Notes under the pieces: model-generated
Told to the model about the DNA's origin: nothing
The model's input: the letters and a program-made list of their open reading frames with translations, nothing else
Databases searched by the model: none
Program-made: the position numbers and the translations under genes
In this document: in pieces, positions 3,462-52,223 of the stretch
Position numbering within the stretch: the first letter of the stretch is position 1
Layout: each line of letters opens with the position of its first letter
Origin: Geobacteraceae bacterium GWC2_53_11
GTDB taxonomy: Bacteria > Desulfobacterota > Desulfuromonadia > Geobacterales > Pseudopelobacteraceae
NCBI GenBank assembly: GCA_001802645.1
Contig: MGZJ01000067.1
Coordinates: 32,265 to 84,600 of the forward strand
Length of the DNA: 52,336 bases
Reading direction: 5' to 3'

Positions 3462-3596
3462 CTCACGCGGCCAGAAGTAGGTGCCTCTAGGCAAGGCGCG
3501 GAGGACGCGGAGAAAATCAAAGATAAAGAATCATGGTTTGATCAGAAGCTTTAGCTTCTAAGGTTTCCTCTGCGTTCTCCGCGTCTCTGCGTGAAA
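3462..3596. repeat. family-1 palindromic repeat, copy A, with hairpin insert
   Basis: Long inverted repeat of the CACGC-AGAG-CGCGGAG type. The right arm (3562-3596) pairs with the left arm (3462-3516), but the left arm is interrupted at 3471-3496 by an unpaired 26-nt block. That block begins CCAGAAGTAGG and contains the hairpin TGCC-TCTA-GGCA (3482-3493). The left arm with insert (3462-3516) is identical over 55 bases to 52042-52096 near phoU. AGAAGCT-tt-AGCTTCT forms a further hairpin in the middle. It fills the gap between ubiX and the glycosyltransferase gene. Confidence 0.9.
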
Positions 3597-12097: not shown

Positions 12098-12138
12098 AAA
12101 AAAAACACCCTGGCAACTAGGAGGGGAAGTTACCAGGG
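12098..12138 (-). terminator. intrinsic terminator downstream of the epimerase gene
   Basis: On the minus strand an 11-bp stem (plus-strand arms 12108-12118 and 12128-12138, one G-U pair) is followed by a run of eight U (A-run 12098-12105). A second hairpin, GAGGATTC-gttg-GAATCCTC (12144-12163), lies just before it. Together they end the 13489-12289 operon before the folK promoter. Confidence 0.85.
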
Positions 12139-12288
12139 CAAATGAGGATTCGTTGGAATCCTCGCAAGATTTTCGTTGATTTAAATATATCAGTACCTTG
12201 ATATCTTGGCAAGTAATAAAAATGATAAGTAGCCGGCATTACATGTAAAAAAGTATTAACTTTACTCTTTTGGTAGGAGACGTTTCGG

Positions 12289-20229: not shown

Positions 20230-20337
20230 GATGATAGCCGGGTTTACCCGCGGCACACAGCAGGAGCCGCTGCCGTTGCTTCCTTCCGGACCTGGCGGAG
20301 TTCACGGCGTGCCGTTGCGCGAGGCCCGGCTATCATC
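20230..20337 (-). ncRNA. ffs: signal recognition particle RNA (4.5S type)
   Basis: On the minus strand the universally conserved SRP core CAGGTCCGGAAGGAAGCA occurs in the middle. The ends form a perfect 13-bp terminal stem (20230-20242 with 20325-20337). About 108 nt, the size of the small bacterial SRP RNA that binds Ffh. It lies between tRNA-Ser and dnaX, all in the same direction. Pairing extends imperfectly some ten bases further on each side. Confidence 0.96.
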
Positions 20338-25533: not shown

Positions 25534-25610
25534 CGGGATGTAGCGCAGCCTGGTAGCGCACCTGCTTCGGGAGCAGGGGGTCGCTAGTTCGAATCTAGTC
25601 ATCCCGACCA
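25534..25610 (+). tRNA. tRNA-Pro (anticodon CGG), integration target
   Basis: 77 nt with encoded CCA. The acceptor CGGGATG pairs with the 3' ATCCCG. The anticodon loop TTCGGGA gives CGG (codon CCG). The T-arm has GTTCGAATC. The 3' 46 bases (25565-25610) are repeated exactly at 29741-29786, marking it as the attachment site of the integrated element that follows. Confidence 0.97.
25565..25610 (+). repeat. attL (46-bp direct repeat in tRNA-Pro)
   Basis: Identical to 29741-29786. It spans from the anticodon loop to the CCA end of the tRNA. Confidence 0.95.
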
Positions 25611-28080: not shown

Positions 28081-28572
28081 ATGGAATATTTTAGTAGTAA
28101 AGACTTGAATAATGAGAATGCGCAGTTCTTACTTCTTGATCGTCTCCAGGAAGCTTTGAAAGAAGTTGGAGTTGAACAGGGATCTAGAAATAGAACTGTT
28201 GCTGAAAAAACAGGTTATTCAGAAAAGACGGTTGGAAATCTTCTTTCTGGAAATTCAAAACTCACGAATAGATTTTTGCGCACTGTCTGTGAGGTGTTTA
28301 ATATCCGGCCAGAATGGCTTGCTAAAGGTGATTTGCCGATAATCAAATTGAAAATTACGGTCTCAAGGCTTTTGGAAAGTGATGAATTAGAAAAAATGCT
28401 GCCTGATGAAATAAGAGGAGCGCTGTCTGAATGGAAGGATAGAAATGAAGATGAGTGTAATAAGATACGGAGTGCAATTACTCAATTATTGATGCTGCCA
28501 CTATCACTTCAGCAGTATAGAAGCATCCTTAAATTTGTCAGCGATACTATTGGGTTAGATGACAAAAAATGA
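28081..28572 (+). CDS. XRE-type HTH repressor of the element
   Basis: About 163 residues. The N-terminal helix-turn-helix domain covers roughly 10-75: NRTVAEKTGYSEKTVGNLLSGNSKLTNRFLRTVCEVFNIRPEWLAKGD, the phage-repressor pattern. The C-terminal half is helical with no LexA-like protease site. AGGTG six bases upstream sets ATG 28081, five residues inside a longer GTG frame. It overlaps the integrase gene by ATGA, so repressor and integrase are coupled. It probably represses its own operon and the divergent run. Confidence 0.85.
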   Translation: MEYFSSKDLNNENAQFLLLDRLQEALKEVGVEQGSRNRTVAEKTGYSEKTVGNLLSGNSKLTNRFLRTVCEVFNIRPEWLAKGDLPIIKLKITVSRLLESDELEKMLPDEIRGALSEWKDRNEDECNKIRSAITQLLMLPLSLQQYRSILKFVSDTIGLDDKK

Positions 28573-29711
28573 GCGTTAAACCGCATCCGACAAAAGGGGC
28601 CGGCTGGTGGTACATCATCGTCAGTCATGGTCGCAAAGCCCCCGCAGAATACATCATATTCCAAGGCACTGAAGTTGAGGCCAAGGCATTTGAAAAAGAA
28701 ATACGTGGGATCGCTCCAGATAACAACAATCGGTTAAAGGTAATCGATCTACTTTCTCGCTTCCTTGAATGGCATAAAACAAACCTGGCAGAGAGCACTC
28801 ATGATGATTGCCAGGATGCATTCAAAAAACTGCTGCCATACCTGGGCAACAAATACATTGCTTACCTCCGCAACAGCGACTACGAACCATACAAAGCCGC
28901 CCGGCTTGCGACCAAGATTGTACCGAAGCGTCGTATGCACCGTCCTGACCGGAAACGTGACAAAAATGCTGAAACAGATGAAGAATATGCACTGCGTTGC
29001 GAAGTTGAAACTCGCAATGTCAGTAAGAGAACGATCCAGATTGAATTAAACCATTTCCGCACCTTTCTTCGCTGGTGTGAAAAGGAAGAAAAATACACTG
29101 TTGGTGATTATCCAAAAGGGTTCCCAAAAAGCCAGCAAAAACCCAAGGGTAAAGTAGTGCTTGCCTTGTCTGAGATTCCCGCGCTGATCAGCAATCAAAA
29201 AGAAGGTTTTCAGCGAACCATTACCATGTTGATGTTGCAGAACGGGCTACGCAAAACGGAAGCACTTACGCTGCGCAAACGTCACGTTGATTTTAAAAAC
29301 AATGCTCTGATTATCACCGGGAAAAATGATAAAACAGAAGTGATCCCGATTGTCACTCAGGAGCTGCGCCAGGCGCTTGAAAAGGCGGGAGAGGGAAAGA
29401 AACCGAACGACTATCTCTTCCTTAATCCGAAAACTGAACGGCCGTATACCAACATCAAGAAGAGCCTGAAATCTGCAGCAGAAAAAGCGGGTATCGATAA
29501 ACGGGTGTATAATCATCTCATGAGGCATAGTTTTGTAACTGGTGGACTGATGGCCGGCGTTCCGGTTTCTGCTATGAGAGAACTTGCGCGCCATGAGGAT
29601 ATTCGGACAACTCAGGGGTACACACACTTTTTGTCTGATTACTTGCAAGGAGAGGCCGGAAAGATATCGTCTGTAATGTCTGTAACAAAAGAAGATGATG
29701 AAACAGCATGA
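28569..29711 (+). CDS. int: tyrosine integrase of the element
   Basis: 380 residues. The N-terminal arm-binding domain is followed by a core-binding SAM-like domain (about 60-190), then the catalytic domain. The catalytic set is visible: Arg in NGLRKTEALTL, Lys in GKNDKTEVIP, His-x-x-Arg in NHLMRHSFVTGG, His in ARHEDIRTTQ and Tyr in GYTHFL. It starts by ATGA overlap with the repressor gene and ends 29 bases before attR, the usual layout for tRNA-targeting elements. It presumably recombines the 46-bp att sites. Confidence 0.95.
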   Translation: MSVKPHPTKGAGWWYIIVSHGRKAPAEYIIFQGTEVEAKAFEKEIRGIAPDNNNRLKVIDLLSRFLEWHKTNLAESTHDDCQDAFKKLLPYLGNKYIAYLRNSDYEPYKAARLATKIVPKRRMHRPDRKRDKNAETDEEYALRCEVETRNVSKRTIQIELNHFRTFLRWCEKEEKYTVGDYPKGFPKSQQKPKGKVVLALSEIPALISNQKEGFQRTITMLMLQNGLRKTEALTLRKRHVDFKNNALIITGKNDKTEVIPIVTQELRQALEKAGEGKKPNDYLFLNPKTERPYTNIKKSLKSAAEKAGIDKRVYNHLMRHSFVTGGLMAGVPVSAMRELARHEDIRTTQGYTHFLSDYLQGEAGKISSVMSVTKEDDETA

Positions 29712-29740: not shown

Positions 29741-29786
29741 CTTCGGGAGCAGGGGGTCGCTAGTTCGAATCTAGTCATCCCGACCA
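29741..29786 (+). repeat. attR (46-bp direct repeat)
   Basis: Exact copy of 25565-25610, the 3' half of tRNA-Pro without its 5' half. Confidence 0.95.
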
Positions 29787-36755: not shown

Positions 36756-36791
36756 CTGTTCAACAAAGTGTAACATCTGCTCCCTTCACAA

Positions 36792-36835
36792 TTACCCGCC
36801 TCTCACTCCCCTCCAGCCAACGGAGGGGAGCCAAA
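36792..36835. repeat. family-3 palindrome, upstream copy
   Basis: CTCCCCTCC (36806-36814) pairs with GGAGGGGAG (36822-36830) around a CCAAC-containing loop. It is preceded by CCGCCTCTC. A near-identical copy lies at 39723-39766, so the two flank the GGDEF-EAL gene. Confidence 0.85.
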
Positions 36836-36888
36836 TTTCCTTCAACAGTCATCTGCTGAATTGTTTCCGAAAACCTATGCCACCAAAC

Positions 36889-39712: not shown

Positions 39713-39722
39713 TGCGCCATGA

Positions 39723-39766
39723 TAACTCGCCTCTCGCTCCCCTCCATCCAACGGAGGGGAGGTAAA
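39723..39766. repeat. family-3 palindrome, downstream copy
   Basis: CTCCCCTCC (39737-39745) pairs with GGAGGGGAG (39753-39761). It is close to identical to 36792-36835, with the same CGCCTCTC lead and CCAAC loop. Confidence 0.85.
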
Positions 39767-39853
39767 TCTCAATAAGCTCGTCCCAATCGCACGGCAATTT
39801 ATTCCCAAATATATGTTGCTGTATTCCCAATTACACGATACAGTGCCCAGACT

Positions 39854-41709: not shown

Positions 41710-41743
41710 CCGGTTGCACTCGGCCTTGAGGCCGGTGAACCGG
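41710..41743. repeat. nested hairpin before the 22-bp inverted repeat
   Basis: CCGGTT (41710-41715) pairs with AACCGG (41738-41743); inside, CGGCCT-tg-AGGCCG (41721-41734) forms a second stem. Confidence 0.65.
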
Positions 41744-41749
41744 AAGGCA

Positions 41750-41814
41750 ATAAGGGGACAGGCTGATTATTGAGTTAAGTGAGCGGGGTGCTAATAATCA
41801 GCCTGTCCCCTTAT
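41750..41814. repeat. MITE/REP-like element with perfect 22-bp inverted repeats
   Basis: Positions 41750-41771 and 41793-41814 are perfect inverted repeats that begin ATAAGGGGACAGGCT; the loop is 21 bases. I associate GGGGACAGGCT ends with DNA beside IS200-like REP-associated (Y1) transposases, from memory. No transposase gene is here, so it may be a non-autonomous copy. Confidence 0.75.
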
Positions 41815-41925
41815 AGCTCTCCTGAATATTGAGGGCAAGCAAGAAGGAATATCAGCCTTGCGCTGTCTCCTGATTGCGCCCTAGGGGCAATTGCCTACAA
41901 AATCGACACAGCGAAAAGTAATTTT

Positions 41926-46938: not shown

Positions 46939-46950
46939 CGTAAGAAAAAC

Positions 46951-47091
46951 CTTACCACCCCCAACCCCTCCTACCAAAAGTAGGCGCTTCTAAGCGAATT
47001 AGGAGGGGGGCTTTTTGAACCTCACTATTAACAGTCGGGGGGCATTTAGCTCCCCCTCCTTCCTCTAAGGAGGGGGTTGGGGGGTGGTTGG
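46951..47091. repeat. family-2 palindromic repeat, copy C, with hairpin insert (pstS-pstC junction)
   Basis: Outer arms are CCACCCCCAACCCCTCCT-like at the left and the matching AGGGGGTTGGGGGGTGG-like at the right (ends 47091). A block at 46973-47000, starting ACCAAAAGTAGG, with hairpin CGCT-TCTA-AGCG (46985-46996), sits in the left hairpin loop. The repeat ends ten bases before pstC. Confidence 0.9.
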
Positions 47092-47100
47092 AATGAATCC

Positions 47101-49329
47101 ATGGCAAAAAACTTTATTGATAAATCCCGCCGCAACGACCGTCTTGCCGAACTGCTGATCCGCATCGGCGGGGTTCTGGTCATCGTTTCGGTTGTGTGGA
47201 TTCTGGTCATGATCTCGCGGGTCGCACTGCCGCTCTTTTACCCCCCCTCTGCTAAAATTGCCGCCACCGTGAAGCTGTCTGCCGCCGTTTTGGCCGGTAA
47301 GGTGCTGGCGGTCGGCGCTGAAGAAAGCCAGCAGGGAGCCTTTGTCCTTGATGACAGCGGCACGTTCCATTTTGTGAAGGTTGCCGATGGCTCCCTCTCT
47401 GCCAGCATCAAAGTGCCTGCTGCTCCTCAAGGCGCTCTGCGCGTTGTCTCCGCTGAAGCTCTCGGCAAGTCGGCGTACACTCTGCTCTGGGATAACGGGG
47501 CGATTTCTGCGGTCACGGTTTCACTAGCGGCTGCCAAAGCTGCGGATGGTGTGGTTTCTCTCTCACATGATGTGGCACCGGTGGATGACCTCGCGTTTGC
47601 CGCCTCTCCTGGCGTCATGCAGTCGTTTGCCCGCGTGATCGAAGGTAAAGGGACGGTACGGATCGACCGCCTGACCAACGGGCGGCTACGGGTAACCCAT
47701 CAGCTGGTGGAAAAGGATCTGCTCGAAAATATCAAAAAGAGCAGCGCCACCGCCGAACTTACGGACCCGCTGCCGGGACGTCTGACGGTTGTTACGGTCG
47801 ATTCGAAGGGGCACTATCTCTATGGCGGCACCGACAACGGCTGGCTGCTGCGCTGGGATATCTCCGAACCGGGGCAGATTCACCTGCTGGAGAGTGTTTC
47901 GGCATCAGAGAAGCGTCAAGGTATCACCTCGCTGGCGCTGGTGCTGGGTGATGTTTCCGTGGCGGTTGGCGATGCGGGCGGCTCACTGACGACCTGGTTT
48001 CCGATCAAGGTGGCAGGAAGCGGCGATGACCGGCGCCTGACCCGCATTCATACCTTGCGCTCCACTGACGGCAAGGTGGCGCTCATCATTCCGTCTCCCC
48101 GCGACAAGACCCTGTTCTCTGGGGGGAACGGTGAAATCCACGCCGATCATATGACCTCGGAACGAAACCTGCTGACTATCAAAGTCTCCGCTCCGCTCAG
48201 TTTTGCCGCGCTTTCGCCTAAAGGCAACAGCCTGGCGGTTCTGGACAGCAGCAACGCCCTGACGGTGTGGAAGCTGGATATCCCGCACCCGGAAATATCG
48301 CTGGGCACCCTGTTCGGCAAGGTCTGGTACGAAGGATATGACAAGCCTGAATACGCCTGGCAGTCCTCGGCGTCCAATGACGATTTCGAGCCGAAGCTGA
48401 GTCTGGTACCGCTGGTGTTCGGCACGATCAAGGCGACTCTGTTTGCCATGCTGTTTGCCGTGCCGCTGGCGCTGCTGGCCGCCCTCTACACCAGTCAGTT
48501 CATGTCGCCGAAACTGAAGGGGCGCGTCAAGCCGGTGGTGGAAATCATGGCCGCCATCCCTTCCGTTGTCATCGGTTTTCTGGCCGGACTCTGGCTGGCG
48601 CCGCTGATCGACAAGAGCATCCTGACGATCTTTTTGAGCATTGTTATCGTGCCGTTCATGCTGCTGGTCACCATCTTTTTTTGGAAACGGATCAGGAACG
48701 CGTCACTGCTGCAAAGAACAACTCGTGGCCATGAATTCATCGCCATGGTGCCGGTGGTCGTGCTCGGCATCTATCTGGCTTTCCTGCTGAGCGGTCTGGC
48801 GGAAGTGAACCTCTTTGCCGGCGACTTCAAGCAATGGCTGTTCAGCACGCTGGGGATTCGCTATGACCAGCGCAACAGTATCATCATCGCCATCGCCCTC
48901 GGCTTTGCGGTCATCCCGATCATCTTTACCATTGCCGAAGATGCCATCTCCAATGTGCCGCGCAACCTGACTGCCGCTTCGCTGGCCTTGGGCGCCAGCC
49001 GCTGGCAGACCGCCTGGCGGGTGGTGCTTCCTTCGGCGCTGCCGGGTGTTTTTTCGGCGGTCATGATCGGCTTCGGCCGTGCCATCGGCGAGACCATGAT
49101 CGTGTTGATGGCGACCGGCAATACGCCGATCATGAGCTGGAGCCTCTTTAACGGTCTCCGCTCCCTGTCGGCCAACATTGCCGTGGAGATCCCGGAAGCG
49201 CCGTTTAACAGCTCACTTTACCGGGTGCTGTTCCTCTCGGCGGTGTTGCTGTTTGTGTTCACCTTTGTCATTAACACGGTAGCCGAGGCGTTGCGCCAGC
49301 GGTTCCGGAAGAAGTACGGAAGGTATTAA
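47101..49329 (+). CDS. pstC: phosphate ABC transporter permease PstC, enlarged with propeller-like domain
   Basis: About 742 residues, over twice the E. coli size of 319. TM1 (about 20-45) is followed by a 370-residue soluble insertion with repeated WD40/beta-propeller-like segments (for example VDSKGHYLYGGTDNGWLLRWD and SPKGNSLAVLDSSNALTVWKLD). The permease core follows with about five membrane segments and the EAA loop AASLALGASRWQTAWRVVLPSALPG. The insertion would face the periplasm or cytoplasm depending on topology. ATG 47101 is favoured because upstream codons lie in the repeat. It partners PstA in the phosphate importer. Confidence 0.93.
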   Translation: MAKNFIDKSRRNDRLAELLIRIGGVLVIVSVVWILVMISRVALPLFYPPSAKIAATVKLSAAVLAGKVLAVGAEESQQGAFVLDDSGTFHFVKVADGSLSASIKVPAAPQGALRVVSAEALGKSAYTLLWDNGAISAVTVSLAAAKAADGVVSLSHDVAPVDDLAFAASPGVMQSFARVIEGKGTVRIDRLTNGRLRVTHQLVEKDLLENIKKSSATAELTDPLPGRLTVVTVDSKGHYLYGGTDNGWLLRWDISEPGQIHLLESVSASEKRQGITSLALVLGDVSVAVGDAGGSLTTWFPIKVAGSGDDRRLTRIHTLRSTDGKVALIIPSPRDKTLFSGGNGEIHADHMTSERNLLTIKVSAPLSFAALSPKGNSLAVLDSSNALTVWKLDIPHPEISLGTLFGKVWYEGYDKPEYAWQSSASNDDFEPKLSLVPLVFGTIKATLFAMLFAVPLALLAALYTSQFMSPKLKGRVKPVVEIMAAIPSVVIGFLAGLWLAPLIDKSILTIFLSIVIVPFMLLVTIFFWKRIRNASLLQRTTRGHEFIAMVPVVVLGIYLAFLLSGLAEVNLFAGDFKQWLFSTLGIRYDQRNSIIIAIALGFAVIPIIFTIAEDAISNVPRNLTAASLALGASRWQTAWRVVLPSALPGVFSAVMIGFGRAIGETMIVLMATGNTPIMSWSLFNGLRSLSANIAVEIPEAPFNSSLYRVLFLSAVLLFVFTFVINTVAEALRQRFRKKYGRY

Positions 49330-49330
49330 A

Positions 49331-49438
49331 ACCTTACCACCCCTAGCCCCTCCTACCAGAAGTAGGCGCTTCTAAGCGAAATAGGAGGGGGATTTTAAGC
49401 TCCCCTCCTTACATAAGGAGGGGTTGGGGGTGGTTGGG
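49331..49438. repeat. family-2 palindromic repeat, copy D, with hairpin insert (pstC-pstA junction)
   Basis: The same architecture as copy C. The insert block is at 49355-49382, starting ACCAGAAGTAGG, with hairpin CGCT-TCTA-AGCG (49367-49378). The right half holds an intact apex CTCCT-TACATA-AGGAG without insert, showing the uninterrupted form. Confidence 0.9.
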
Positions 49439-49466
49439 TTTAGATTTACAAGCAAGAGGTTCTTCA

Positions 49467-51062
49467 ATGAATAAATTCTGGAAAACAGGCGAACCGTACG
49501 TGCTGGCTACCGGGGCGGCCCTGGCGATCATCCTGGTCATGAGCCTGTCGCTGGTCGGCGTCGTCATGACCAACGGGCTCGGCTATTTCTGGCCGCGGGC
49601 GCTGGTCAAATTCGAGCTGAAGGACGGCACCTCCGCACTCGGCCAGATTATGGAGCAGGAGAATAACCCGATCAGCGGTGCCCGGCGCCTGCAGCTGAAA
49701 GTCGCCAACCGTGACGTGTTCGGTCAGGATTTTCGCTGGATTGACGAGAAGGATATCGCCTCGCGCACCCTGCCCGGTGATGCGGTGCTGCTGGAACGGC
49801 GCGAGAACGGCAACTATTTCGGTTTCCTGCAGGGCATTACCACGGAAGGGCTTGTCCTGACCGGTGTCACGCCGTATGAACAGTTGTTGCAGGCACGGAA
49901 GCTGGTAGCAGGCAAGCTGGAGAACACCCGAACGATCAGGAAACAGATGTCGAATCTGAACAGCAATGCCGAGCGGATCCGCCTGAAACTGCTGAAGCTT
50001 GAGTATGGCGGGCAAGAGAAGAATGCGTCGGCTATTACTGAGCTGACCGCTGCCCGTGAAAAGGAGATGGCCGAATTCAGCCGCCTGAACGAACAGGCCA
50101 GTGCCACCATGGCCGATATAGGCAAAATCACCGCCCAGTTCAGTGATGCTACGGGGGGCAGCAAAGATATCTCCCTGACGGAAATCGTTGCCCTGCAGCG
50201 CCCCAACAGCATGTCGTTTGTTGCCAAGTGCGGCGCCTATCTGGAGCGGGTCCGCGAACTGCTGTTGGATGATCCGCGTGAATCCAACACCGAGGGGGGG
50301 CTCTTTCCGGCCATCTTCGGTACGGTCATGATGGTGCTGCTGATGAGTGTCTTCTCGCTCCCCTTTGGGGTGATCGCCGCCATCTACCTGCGGGAATACG
50401 CCAAGGATGGCCTGATGACACGCATGGTGCGCATCGCCGTCAACAATCTGGCCGGTGTTCCCTCCATCGTCTACGGAGTGTTCGGACTCGGCTTCTTCGT
50501 CTACGGCATCGGCGGCAGCATCGACTCCCTCTTCTTCCCGGAACGGCTGCCTACCCCGACCTTCGGCACCGGCGGCATCCTCTGGTCGAGCCTGACCCTG
50601 GCGCTCCTGACCGTACCGGTGGTGATCGTCGCCACCGAGGAATCGCTTGCCTCAATTCCGAAAGGGGTGCGTGAAGGTTCACTGGCGCTGGGGGCTACCA
50701 AGTTCCAGACCCTGATGAAGATCCTGCTTCCCATGGCAACCCCCGGCATCATGACCGGTCTGATCCTCTCCATGGCGCGCGCTGCCGGTGAGGTTGCACC
50801 GCTGATGATCGTCGGTGTGGTCAAGCTGGCGCCGACGCTTCCCTTTGATACGAATTTCCCGTTTTTCCACATGGACCGGAAATTCATGCACCTCGGCTTT
50901 CATATCTACGACGTCGGCTTTCAGTCCCCCAACGTGGAAGCGGCTAAGCCGATGGTATTTGTAACGACGATGCTGCTGCTGGCAATTGTCATCCTGGCCA
51001 GCAGTGTGGCCATATATCTGCGCAACCGGATGCGCAGCAAGTATACGACTTCGACGTTTTAA
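49467..51062 (+). CDS. pstA: phosphate ABC transporter permease PstA, enlarged
   Basis: About 531 residues. TM1 (about 15-37), then a soluble region of about 240 residues including a predicted coiled coil (RKQMSNLNSNAERIRLKLLKLEYGG to MAEFSRLNEQASATMADIG), then the permease core with EAA loop GSLALGATKFQTLMKILLPMATPG. E. coli PstA is about 300 residues, so this chain is extended like its partner PstC. AAGAGG lies upstream of the ATG at 49467. A dyad repeat separates it from pstB. Confidence 0.93.
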   Translation: MNKFWKTGEPYVLATGAALAIILVMSLSLVGVVMTNGLGYFWPRALVKFELKDGTSALGQIMEQENNPISGARRLQLKVANRDVFGQDFRWIDEKDIASRTLPGDAVLLERRENGNYFGFLQGITTEGLVLTGVTPYEQLLQARKLVAGKLENTRTIRKQMSNLNSNAERIRLKLLKLEYGGQEKNASAITELTAAREKEMAEFSRLNEQASATMADIGKITAQFSDATGGSKDISLTEIVALQRPNSMSFVAKCGAYLERVRELLLDDPRESNTEGGLFPAIFGTVMMVLLMSVFSLPFGVIAAIYLREYAKDGLMTRMVRIAVNNLAGVPSIVYGVFGLGFFVYGIGGSIDSLFFPERLPTPTFGTGGILWSSLTLALLTVPVVIVATEESLASIPKGVREGSLALGATKFQTLMKILLPMATPGIMTGLILSMARAAGEVAPLMIVGVVKLAPTLPFDTNFPFFHMDRKFMHLGFHIYDVGFQSPNVEAAKPMVFVTTMLLLAIVILASSVAIYLRNRMRSKYTTSTF

Positions 51063-51077
51063 CCGGGAACCCTTTTC

Positions 51078-51208
51078 TTTGCCACAGAGACACAGAGACT
51101 CAGAGGAGAACATCAACTGATGATGAAAATGAATACATTCGTATTTGACGATTAGTATGTTTTTCCTTGGTATGACTTTCTCAGTGACTCTGTGTCTCTG
51201 TGGCTATA
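51078..51208. repeat. family-4 palindromic repeat (pstA-pstB junction)
   Basis: The left arm (51078-51110) of the GCCACAGAGACACAGAG type pairs with the right arm (51177-51208) of the CTCTGTGTCTCTGTGGC type, around about 65 bases of AT-rich DNA. No hairpin insert is present. It separates pstA from pstB. Confidence 0.85.
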
Positions 51209-51240
51209 TTTTCAGTTTAAGCACTAAATAAGGAACTAAC

Positions 51241-52017
51241 ATGTCACAACCCCTGGAACACACCACACCGATTCTCTCGGTTTCCGATCTGAACCTACAT
51301 TATGGCGCGGCCCATGCCCTCAAGAACATCAATCTTGAGATGGCCCGCAACCAGGTGACCGCTTTCATCGGACCGTCCGGCTGCGGCAAGTCAACGCTGC
51401 TGCGCTGCTTCAACCGGATGAACGACCTGGTGGAGAGCGCCCGGATCGACGGCAGCATCCGCTTCGACGGCGCCGAGATCAATGAGCCCTCTACCGACGT
51501 CATCTCGCTCCGGCGCCGGATCGGCATGGTCTTTCAGCAGTCCAACCCGTTCCCCAAGTCGATCTACGAGAACATCGTCTACGGCCTGCGCATTTCCGGA
51601 GTAAACGACAAGGCGACTCTCGATGAAGCGGTAGAGCGGAGCCTGAAAAACGCCGCCATCTGGAATGAAGTAAAGGATCGCTTGCATGAGTCGGCGCTGG
51701 GACTTTCCGGCGGTCAGGCCCAGCGCATCTGCATCGCCCGGGCCATTGCGGTCAATCCGGAGATCATCCTGATGGACGAGCCCTGTTCGGCGCTCGACCC
51801 GATTTCGACCCTCAAGATTGAGGAGTTGATCGAAGAGTTGAAAAGCAAGTACACTATTGTCATCGTCACCCACAACATGCAGCAGGCGGCGCGGGTGTCG
51901 GATGTGACGGCGTTCTTTTATCTGGGAGAGTTGATTGAGGCGGGCGGGACACGCAAAATTTTCACCAACCCGGAGAAGAAACAGACGGAAGATTACATTA
52001 CCGGTCGGTTCGGGTAA
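51241..52017 (+). CDS. pstB: phosphate ABC transporter ATPase PstB
   Basis: 258 residues. Walker [15 protein letters not shown]-loop [16 protein letters not shown] (typical PstB), signature [15 protein letters not shown], Walker [15 protein letters not shown] and the H-loop [13 protein letters not shown]. It drives phosphate import through PstC/PstA. The ribosome site is weak. It is followed by repeat copy B and phoU. Confidence 0.97.
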
Positions 52018-52041
52018 CCCAAAAAACAAGGCAAAACCGGT

Positions 52042-52183
52042 CTCACGCGGCCAGAAGTAGGTGCCTCTAGGCAAGGCGCGGAGGACGCGGAGAAAACCAG
52101 GATTAAAGGCTTAAGTCTTTAGGGGTAATACATAAATCTTTGTTTTTGACTTTCTCCGTGGTCTCCGCGTCTCCGCGTGAAAA
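52042..52183. repeat. family-1 palindromic repeat, copy B, with hairpin insert (pstB-phoU junction)
   Basis: The left arm with insert (52042-52096) is identical over 55 bases to 3462-3516. The insert block is 52051-52076, with hairpin TGCC-TCTA-GGCA (52062-52073). The right arm 52151-52183 pairs with the left arm outside the insert. The middle differs from copy A. Confidence 0.92.
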
Positions 52184-52223
52184 TAACAGGTTTAATTCCG
52201 GCGTGACCGGATGAGGAGAACAT

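Follow-up and report, generated by a model that had tools for sequence, protein, structure and literature searches.

The window analyzed here, meaning the whole stretch of 52,336 nucleotides, contains four copies of a short hairpin-bearing sequence, each lying within a larger palindrome (Table 1). The copy at 3471 lies between two minus-strand open reading frames (ORFs), and the other three are in or at the end of an operon that resembles a phosphate uptake operon. By Pfam, the proteins of this operon are one PBP_like_2, two BPD_transp_1, and one ABC_tran protein, and from these domains and the gene order we infer pstS-, pstC-, pstA-, and pstB-like genes. Searching the window with a 19-nt R/Y pattern at up to 3 mismatches returned exactly four matches; dinucleotide shuffles are expected to give 0.08, and none of 100 reached four. 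At 25534-25607 and 29741-29786, a 46-nt stretch from the 3' end of a tRNA gene (25565-25610) recurs unchanged 4.2 kb further downstream. The second copy directly follows the gene of a tyrosine integrase (28569-29711, PF00589), the mark of a small element integrated at a tRNA gene. Another palindromic repeat, CCCGCCTCTCACTCCCCTCC..GGAGGGGAG, occurs at 36791-36839 and 39722-39770, both copies being without the element.

Table 1. Element copies, host palindromes, and RNA features in the window.
Feature	Position	Strand	Context
23-nt element, TGCC/GGCA subtype	3471..3493	+	5' arm of host palindrome 1
Host palindrome 1, ACGCGGAG-type tandem units	3462..3596		Inverted partner at ~3565-3596; broken after CTCACGCGG
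atoC RNA (Rfam match)	12101-12191	-	
Small SRP RNA (Rfam match)	20233-20331	-	
Host palindrome 2, ACCACCCC..CCCCTCCT / AGGAGGGG..GGGGTGGT	46947..47091		Between pstS-like and pstC-like genes
23-nt element, CGCT/AGCG subtype	46974..46996	+	Apex of the first sub-hairpin of host 2
Host palindrome, family 2	49329..49441		Between pstC-like and pstA-like genes
23-nt element, CGCT/AGCG subtype	49356..49378	+	Host family 2
Related host palindrome, CCACAGAG units, without element	51081..51204		Between pstA-like and pstB-like genes
Host palindrome, family 1	52042..52182		Downstream of pstB-like gene
23-nt element, TGCC/GGCA subtype	52051..52073	+	5' arm of host palindrome

A preliminary description had placed a 25-nt hairpin block at these four places, with the stem halves TGCC/GGCA in two copies and CGCT/AGCG in the other two. 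All four blocks are present with these pairs, so that the hairpin and its places stand, while the length and the ends had to be revised: the insert is 23 nt long, has the limits given in Table 1, and the extra bases belong to the hosts. It reads CCARAAGTAGG-YGCY-TYYA-RGCR, that is, CCARAAGTAGG followed by a 4-bp stem closed by the loop TYYA; CCARAA opens the insert, and GTAG occupies positions 7 to 10 of 23. Taken by itself, the stem has little stability (−2.6 to −3.5 kcal/mol as DNA; shuffle z of −0.8 to −1.6), and Rfam has no family at the block in the window.

By sequence comparison, the 3' half of the 23-mer is a hairpin kept through compensatory changes. We collected 124 copies with a pattern that had N at the paired positions 12, 15, 20, and 23; the inner two stem pairs were fixed by this pattern and are therefore uninformative on covariation. 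At the two variable pairs, standard pairing was found in 122 and 121 of the 124 copies, values that none of 10,000 permutations reached for either pair, bearing out the earlier claim that two base pairs covary and the stem is kept. Among 26 distinct variants, double-sided changes filled 14 cells, versus 5.3 in shuffles (0 of 500 reached 14), while the number of pairs with a double-sided change (two) was not above that in shuffles. The covariation score was 0.39 at the true partner and between 0 and 0.27 when the partner was slid. Read on the element strand, pair 15-20 included 11 T-G and 2 C-A combinations, and pair 12-23 included 1 and 2, respectively; the excess of T-G at 15-20 suggests that the element strand is the strand that folds.

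The source genome (4.28 Mb in 91 contigs) holds 24 copies, on both strands and in several unrelated host palindromes. With up to 2 mismatches, 24 matches were obtained and none with the control; with up to 3, there were 26 matches and 8 with the reversed control pattern, and 24 were kept. The two that were dropped as chance matches (L025 and L026) had 3 mismatches and no CCARA start. Judged by eye, the hosts in this genome are of at least seven kinds.

In the genus, 35 of 39 genomes had at least one match to a looser 19-mer, a stringency at which control matches were common. In the family, 36 of 76 genomes carried the 24-mer with at most 1 mismatch, against one control match in total. An even draw across the phylum gave exact matches in 6 of 395 genomes (the source genome, one congener, and four genomes from two other families), with no control match shown, and the distribution is thus very patchy. 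With one genome taken per species, at least 117 stretches carry the block. Among the stretches listed, the record names include Geobacteraceae, Geobacter, Pelobacter, Desulfuromonadales, Methylobacter, Crenothrix, Sulfuricella, Sulfurimicrobium, Solimonas, Ectothiorhodospiraceae, Hydrogenophilales, and Nitrospirae/Nitrospiria, along with one bin each of Bacillales and Enterobacterales; no cyanobacterium was among the 117. A near-identical 23-mer is found in records of Desulfobacterota, Pseudomonadota, and Nitrospirota, at 1 to 85 copies per genome in the 20 genomes examined. Records not labelled as metagenome bins include Methylobacter tundripaludum SV96 (18 copies), Solimonas sp. SE-A11 (7), Solimonas fluminis HR-BB (6), and Geotalea toluenoxydans (1), and so contamination of bins alone is insufficient to explain the spread. 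Nitrospirota are represented by bin assemblies only, yet two of these have 51 and 85 copies across many contigs. A viral contig collection gave no exact match. Altogether, 174 nonredundant sites fell into 104, 79, or 46 junction clusters, depending on the threshold.

Four independent tests, namely the scoring of cuts in host stems, the comparison of loops, the pstC-pstA gap, and an interrupted gene, agree on an exact insertion of 23 nt, in which flanking bases are neither duplicated nor lost. Across 57 host stems that span the junction, 81 cut variants were compared, and the mean pairing score was highest (37.1) when precisely the 23-mer was removed. This cut was among the best at 38 of these sites and not at 19, and it was the single best at 8 of the 21 sites that have one best; removal of 23 nt in any register was among the best at 44 of the 57, and 23 nt was the sole best length at 40. 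In the source genome, loops of the CCCCTCCT type measure 44 nt when occupied and 21 nt when empty (CCCCTCCTAAAATAGGAGGGG). Among 50 of the 76 places listed, there were 5 occupied loops and 12 empty copies that read exactly CCCCTCCTAAAATAGGAGGGG. Taking the element out of the copies examined left A^AAAT in 6 of 14, the same loop as in empty CCCCTCCTAAAATAGGAGGGG, and the window copy at 49356, once removed, leaves CCCCTCCTA^AAATAGGAGGGG, the sequence that empty copies have at other places in the genome.

The gap between pstC and pstA was readable in 29 of 30 loci of the genus; 4 of the 29 hold the element, which in one case reads ATAG in place of GTAG, and in the others there is either a different palindrome or no palindrome. 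An alignment of six of these loci, selected for similar palindromes, has a 23-column gap that separates the occupied genomes G010 and G003 from the empty G028, G015, G023, and G030. Because the pst-like region is about 70 to 88% alike between species of the genus, polymorphism at the strain level was not seen. The interrupted gene is a Y2_Tnp transposase gene, broken by the element in a contig from Sulfuricellaceae (L135). The left piece matches profile positions 98 to 155 over the cut-off, and the right piece matches positions 159 to 181 under it (E of 0.0029; 18.1 bits against 20.9). Compared with two plasmid homologues, the gap is exactly 23 columns, and removal of the element closes the gene. 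Another copy (L131:7447-7469) lies in the 3' tail of a reading frame that we take to be HepT-like and alters the end of its protein.

Many unrelated hosts, exact empty sites in the same genome as well as in other species, and an insertion into coding sequence sustain the earlier suggestion of an independent short element; copies are not confined to one position of a single larger repeat. On these comparisons, the 23-mer is very probably an independent and precisely inserted element.

The host palindromes are built from units such as ACGCGGAG, CGCAGAG, CACAGAG, ACACGGAT, CACGGGG, ACGACGCA, and CCCCTCCT/AGGAGGGG. As described before, the block interrupts a stem, in its 5' arm, at 3471 and 52051 and sits at an apex or in a loop at 46974 and 49356. 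We classified 172 sites in this respect, 2 of the 174 having been dropped for short flanks. A strong inverted partner was present downstream of the element, placing it in the 5' arm, at 95 sites and upstream, placing it in the 3' arm, at 9; pairing across the junction (apex) was found at 19, and the classes overlap. At 66 sites there was no palindrome above the threshold, which the best of 30 shuffles reached at 7 sites. With respect to the target strand, the element always points the same way, and most often it occupies either a loop or the 5' arm of a palindromic repeat.

The junction was R^A at 162 of 169 sites (96 A^A and 66 G^A), although the search patterns ended in A and the 3' flanking A is partly built in; this A was present in all 24 source-genome copies, which came from a search allowing mismatches. 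Among the loci examined, pairs of elements at most 300 nt apart were plus-minus in three cases, minus-plus in one, and tandem in two, and there were at least four more plus-minus pairs (genome G001, contig C167; G084, C57 and C16; G217, C154). The plus-minus order is the one to expect if each copy lies in the 5' arm of its own strand. The sole close minus-plus pair (L117), with its members 184 nt apart, is contrary to this rule. In the pst-like region (window positions 46939-52200 and loci L231 to L260), operon gaps hold differing palindromic repeats at the same places across species of the genus and form a hotspot of host palindromes. In Geobacter metallireducens, paired tandem octanucleotide repeats have been called putative sites of the global regulators IHF/HU (PMC2700814, excerpts). 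These octamers (e.g., TCTCCGTS, on opposite strands and at variable distance) resemble the hosts described here and are unlike the inserted block; no such block is mentioned in the excerpts of that source, and GTAGG occurs at no word start in its main text.

GTAG at the 5' foot of the hairpin had been read as recalling REP/RAYT sites; the GTAG at the foot of a covarying hairpin holds, whereas it is not terminal, lying 6 nt inside the insert, and the stem has 4 bp. That the 23-mer is a true member of the GTAG REP family, mobilized by a TnpA_REP (RAYT) whose gene lies at another place in the genome, appears unlikely to us. There is a precedent for GTAG REPs inside palindromes (PMC3733652, excerpts), and Y1 is present in 34 of 36 element-bearing genomes of the family (the two exceptions being 66% and 78% complete) and in 20 of 20 further genomes that carry the element; it is, however, also present in 34 of 40 element-free family genomes. 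Y1 and element numbers correlate weakly (Spearman 0.33, P = 0.0035, 76 genomes; 0.29 in the 59 genomes at least 90% complete; 0.17, P = 0.31, within the genus). When 32 Y1 proteins were grouped, no group at 45% identity or more was common to the element-rich genomes, and single linkage at 40% or below gave one loose group spanning 10 of 11 such genomes. A REPtron arrangement was not seen in the Y1 loci read: 1 of 62 had a copy of the element within about 1.5 kb, this copy being about 0.7 kb away, and the earlier idea of a Y1/RAYT gene flanked by the same hairpin was thus not borne out. The 62 loci comprise 2 of 2 in the source genome, 30 of 64 listed in ten rich relatives, and 30 of 126 in twenty other genomes (192 matches listed in all). 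In the source genome, the Y1 gene in L027 is flanked by a different, GGGGACAG hairpin. A palindrome with a AAGGGGACAGGCTG arm at 41742-41822 in the window is like the GGGGACAGG hairpin beside this Y1 gene, and palindromes of this type are perhaps REP-like repeats belonging to the L027 RAYT. At L079:630-652, an inverted pair of blocks of the 23-mer type lies inside what looks, on inspection by eye, to be a broken RAYT-like gene. A Y1 protein may still act in trans as the mover of the 23-mer.

A route through RNA, with a hairpin transcript copied or joined into DNA, seems to us quite improbable. A weak excess of copies lies on the coding strand of flanking codirectional genes (71 of 117, P = 0.026; 60 of 98, P = 0.033, and 48 of 78, P = 0.054, with stricter gene calls), and the T-G excess at pair 15-20 described above would fit folding of the element strand with wobble tolerated. 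The strand bias is, however, small and borderline and could reflect selection, and reverse transcriptase as defined by PF00078, the one family sought, is missing from five element-rich genomes at least 98% complete (G001, G005, G022, G025, and G054, with 30, 26, 16, 22, and 16 copies). We regard it as highly improbable that the 23-mer is an internal module of composite palindromes whose spread depends entirely on theirs or on recombination between them. Matches of about 110 to 119 nt to the host-plus-element unit of the window, 93 to 96% identical and of equal length, do recur in other genomes and elsewhere in the source genome, so that copies outnumber insertion events; moreover, element subtypes mostly track host types in the source genome, as judged by eye. 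Against such a module stand the different hosts, the empty hosts of the same sequence, locus L119, in which both arms of a palindrome are occupied on opposite strands, and the insertion into the transposase gene in L135, which contradicts it.

To look for a gene linked to the element, 861 ORFs from loci L058 to L174 were clustered, and no family stood out beside the copies; the largest cluster had 27 ORFs from 19 loci, 7 of them at most 400 bp from a copy, and we took it for a generic family. An unsystematic look for a master locus with a longer conserved copy found none.

The explanation toward which we lean is that the 23-mer is a nonautonomous mobile element inserted via a folded single strand by a trans-acting enzyme. 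An enzyme of this kind would recognize GTAG and the hairpin on one folded strand, cut at two exact points, one at the 3' foot of the hairpin and the other 11 nt ahead of the hairpin, and join the excised piece into single-stranded DNA exposed at extruded palindromes, in a single-strand reaction of an IS200/IS605-like or REP-like type. The recurrent units indicate that whole host-plus-element palindromes have also been multiplied. A single-strand reaction by a trans-acting enzyme was proposed because it fits the ends, the absence of a duplication, the strand rule, and the GTAG-plus-hairpin design. For the single-strand chemistry itself, we see an even balance, a point against it being the lack of a GC-skew bias. 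Against the explanation as a whole stand the lack of a cognate Y1 in the 62 loci read and of a strong Y1 correlation, the weak 4-bp stem, the 19 of 57 sites at which the exact cut was not among the best, and the 66 of 172 sites with no palindrome above the threshold; the evidence is comparative throughout. More tentatively, the 23-mer, which has no gene of its own, could be a parasite that is mobile and active in at least three bacterial phyla and relies on a widespread cellular activity, not encoded by the element, for the precise insertion of short hairpin DNA at extruded palindromes. If true, this would reveal a new pathway of insertion and make the 23-mer the smallest mobile element that phyla have in common. 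As a mobile element, the 23-mer would rank among the smallest known. REP dissemination mechanisms are poorly understood (PMC8266576, excerpts), and the spread of REP-like and SDR-like repeats in general still awaits an explanation. The tiny unit, with its exact ends, simple target rule, empty sites in the same genome, and copies in records other than bins, makes a search for the enzyme directly testable.

No description of the 23-mer was found in the literature covered, main texts outside most subscription journals, in which five 18-mers had no match. The small dispersed repeat (SDR) elements of Nostoc and Anabaena, which Elhai et al. are said to have described in Genome Res. in 2008, reportedly measure 21 to 27 nt and are nested in tandem heptamers and other small repeats; some reportedly share a structure backed by compensatory changes. 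They are also said to be confined to one cyanobacterial subgroup, and an RNA intermediate was reportedly suggested for their movement; we know of no enzyme for them. By these properties, the 23-mer falls inside the size range, has compensatory changes in its stem, and is nested in tandem 7- to 8-mers and small repeats, and it differs in occurring in noncyanobacterial phyla; the likening is by description. Its exact insertion also resembles that of SDR5, which is inserted precisely in HIP1 (PMC4390886, excerpts).

With GTAG REPs and REPINs, the 23-mer shares an unpaired GTAG at the 5' foot of a hairpin, a mostly intergenic position, and multiple copies (PMC3733652, PMC3116915, and PMC8266576, all in excerpt), and some GTAG families likewise lie inside palindromes (PMC3733652). 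It differs from them in the 6 nt of insert that precede GTAG, in its exact 23-nt limits, in occurring mostly as singlets in the loci examined, in the lack of a RAYT beside the copies read and of a RAYT flanked by the repeat (a REPtron) in the Y1 loci read, and in its 4-bp stem, whereas the stems of GTAG REPs mostly have 6 to 9 bp, and 5 bp in one family (PMC3733652, excerpts). The absence of a target-site duplication, the fixed short target R^A, and the use of one strand are IS200/IS605-like. As for the lagging-strand bias of IS200/IS605-like transposition, local GC skew, a crude proxy for replication strand, was positive at 82 of 167 and by that measure gave no bias. Taken by analogy, the 23-mer appears closest in behavior to the cyanobacterial SDRs and closest in looks to the GTAG-tagged REPs.
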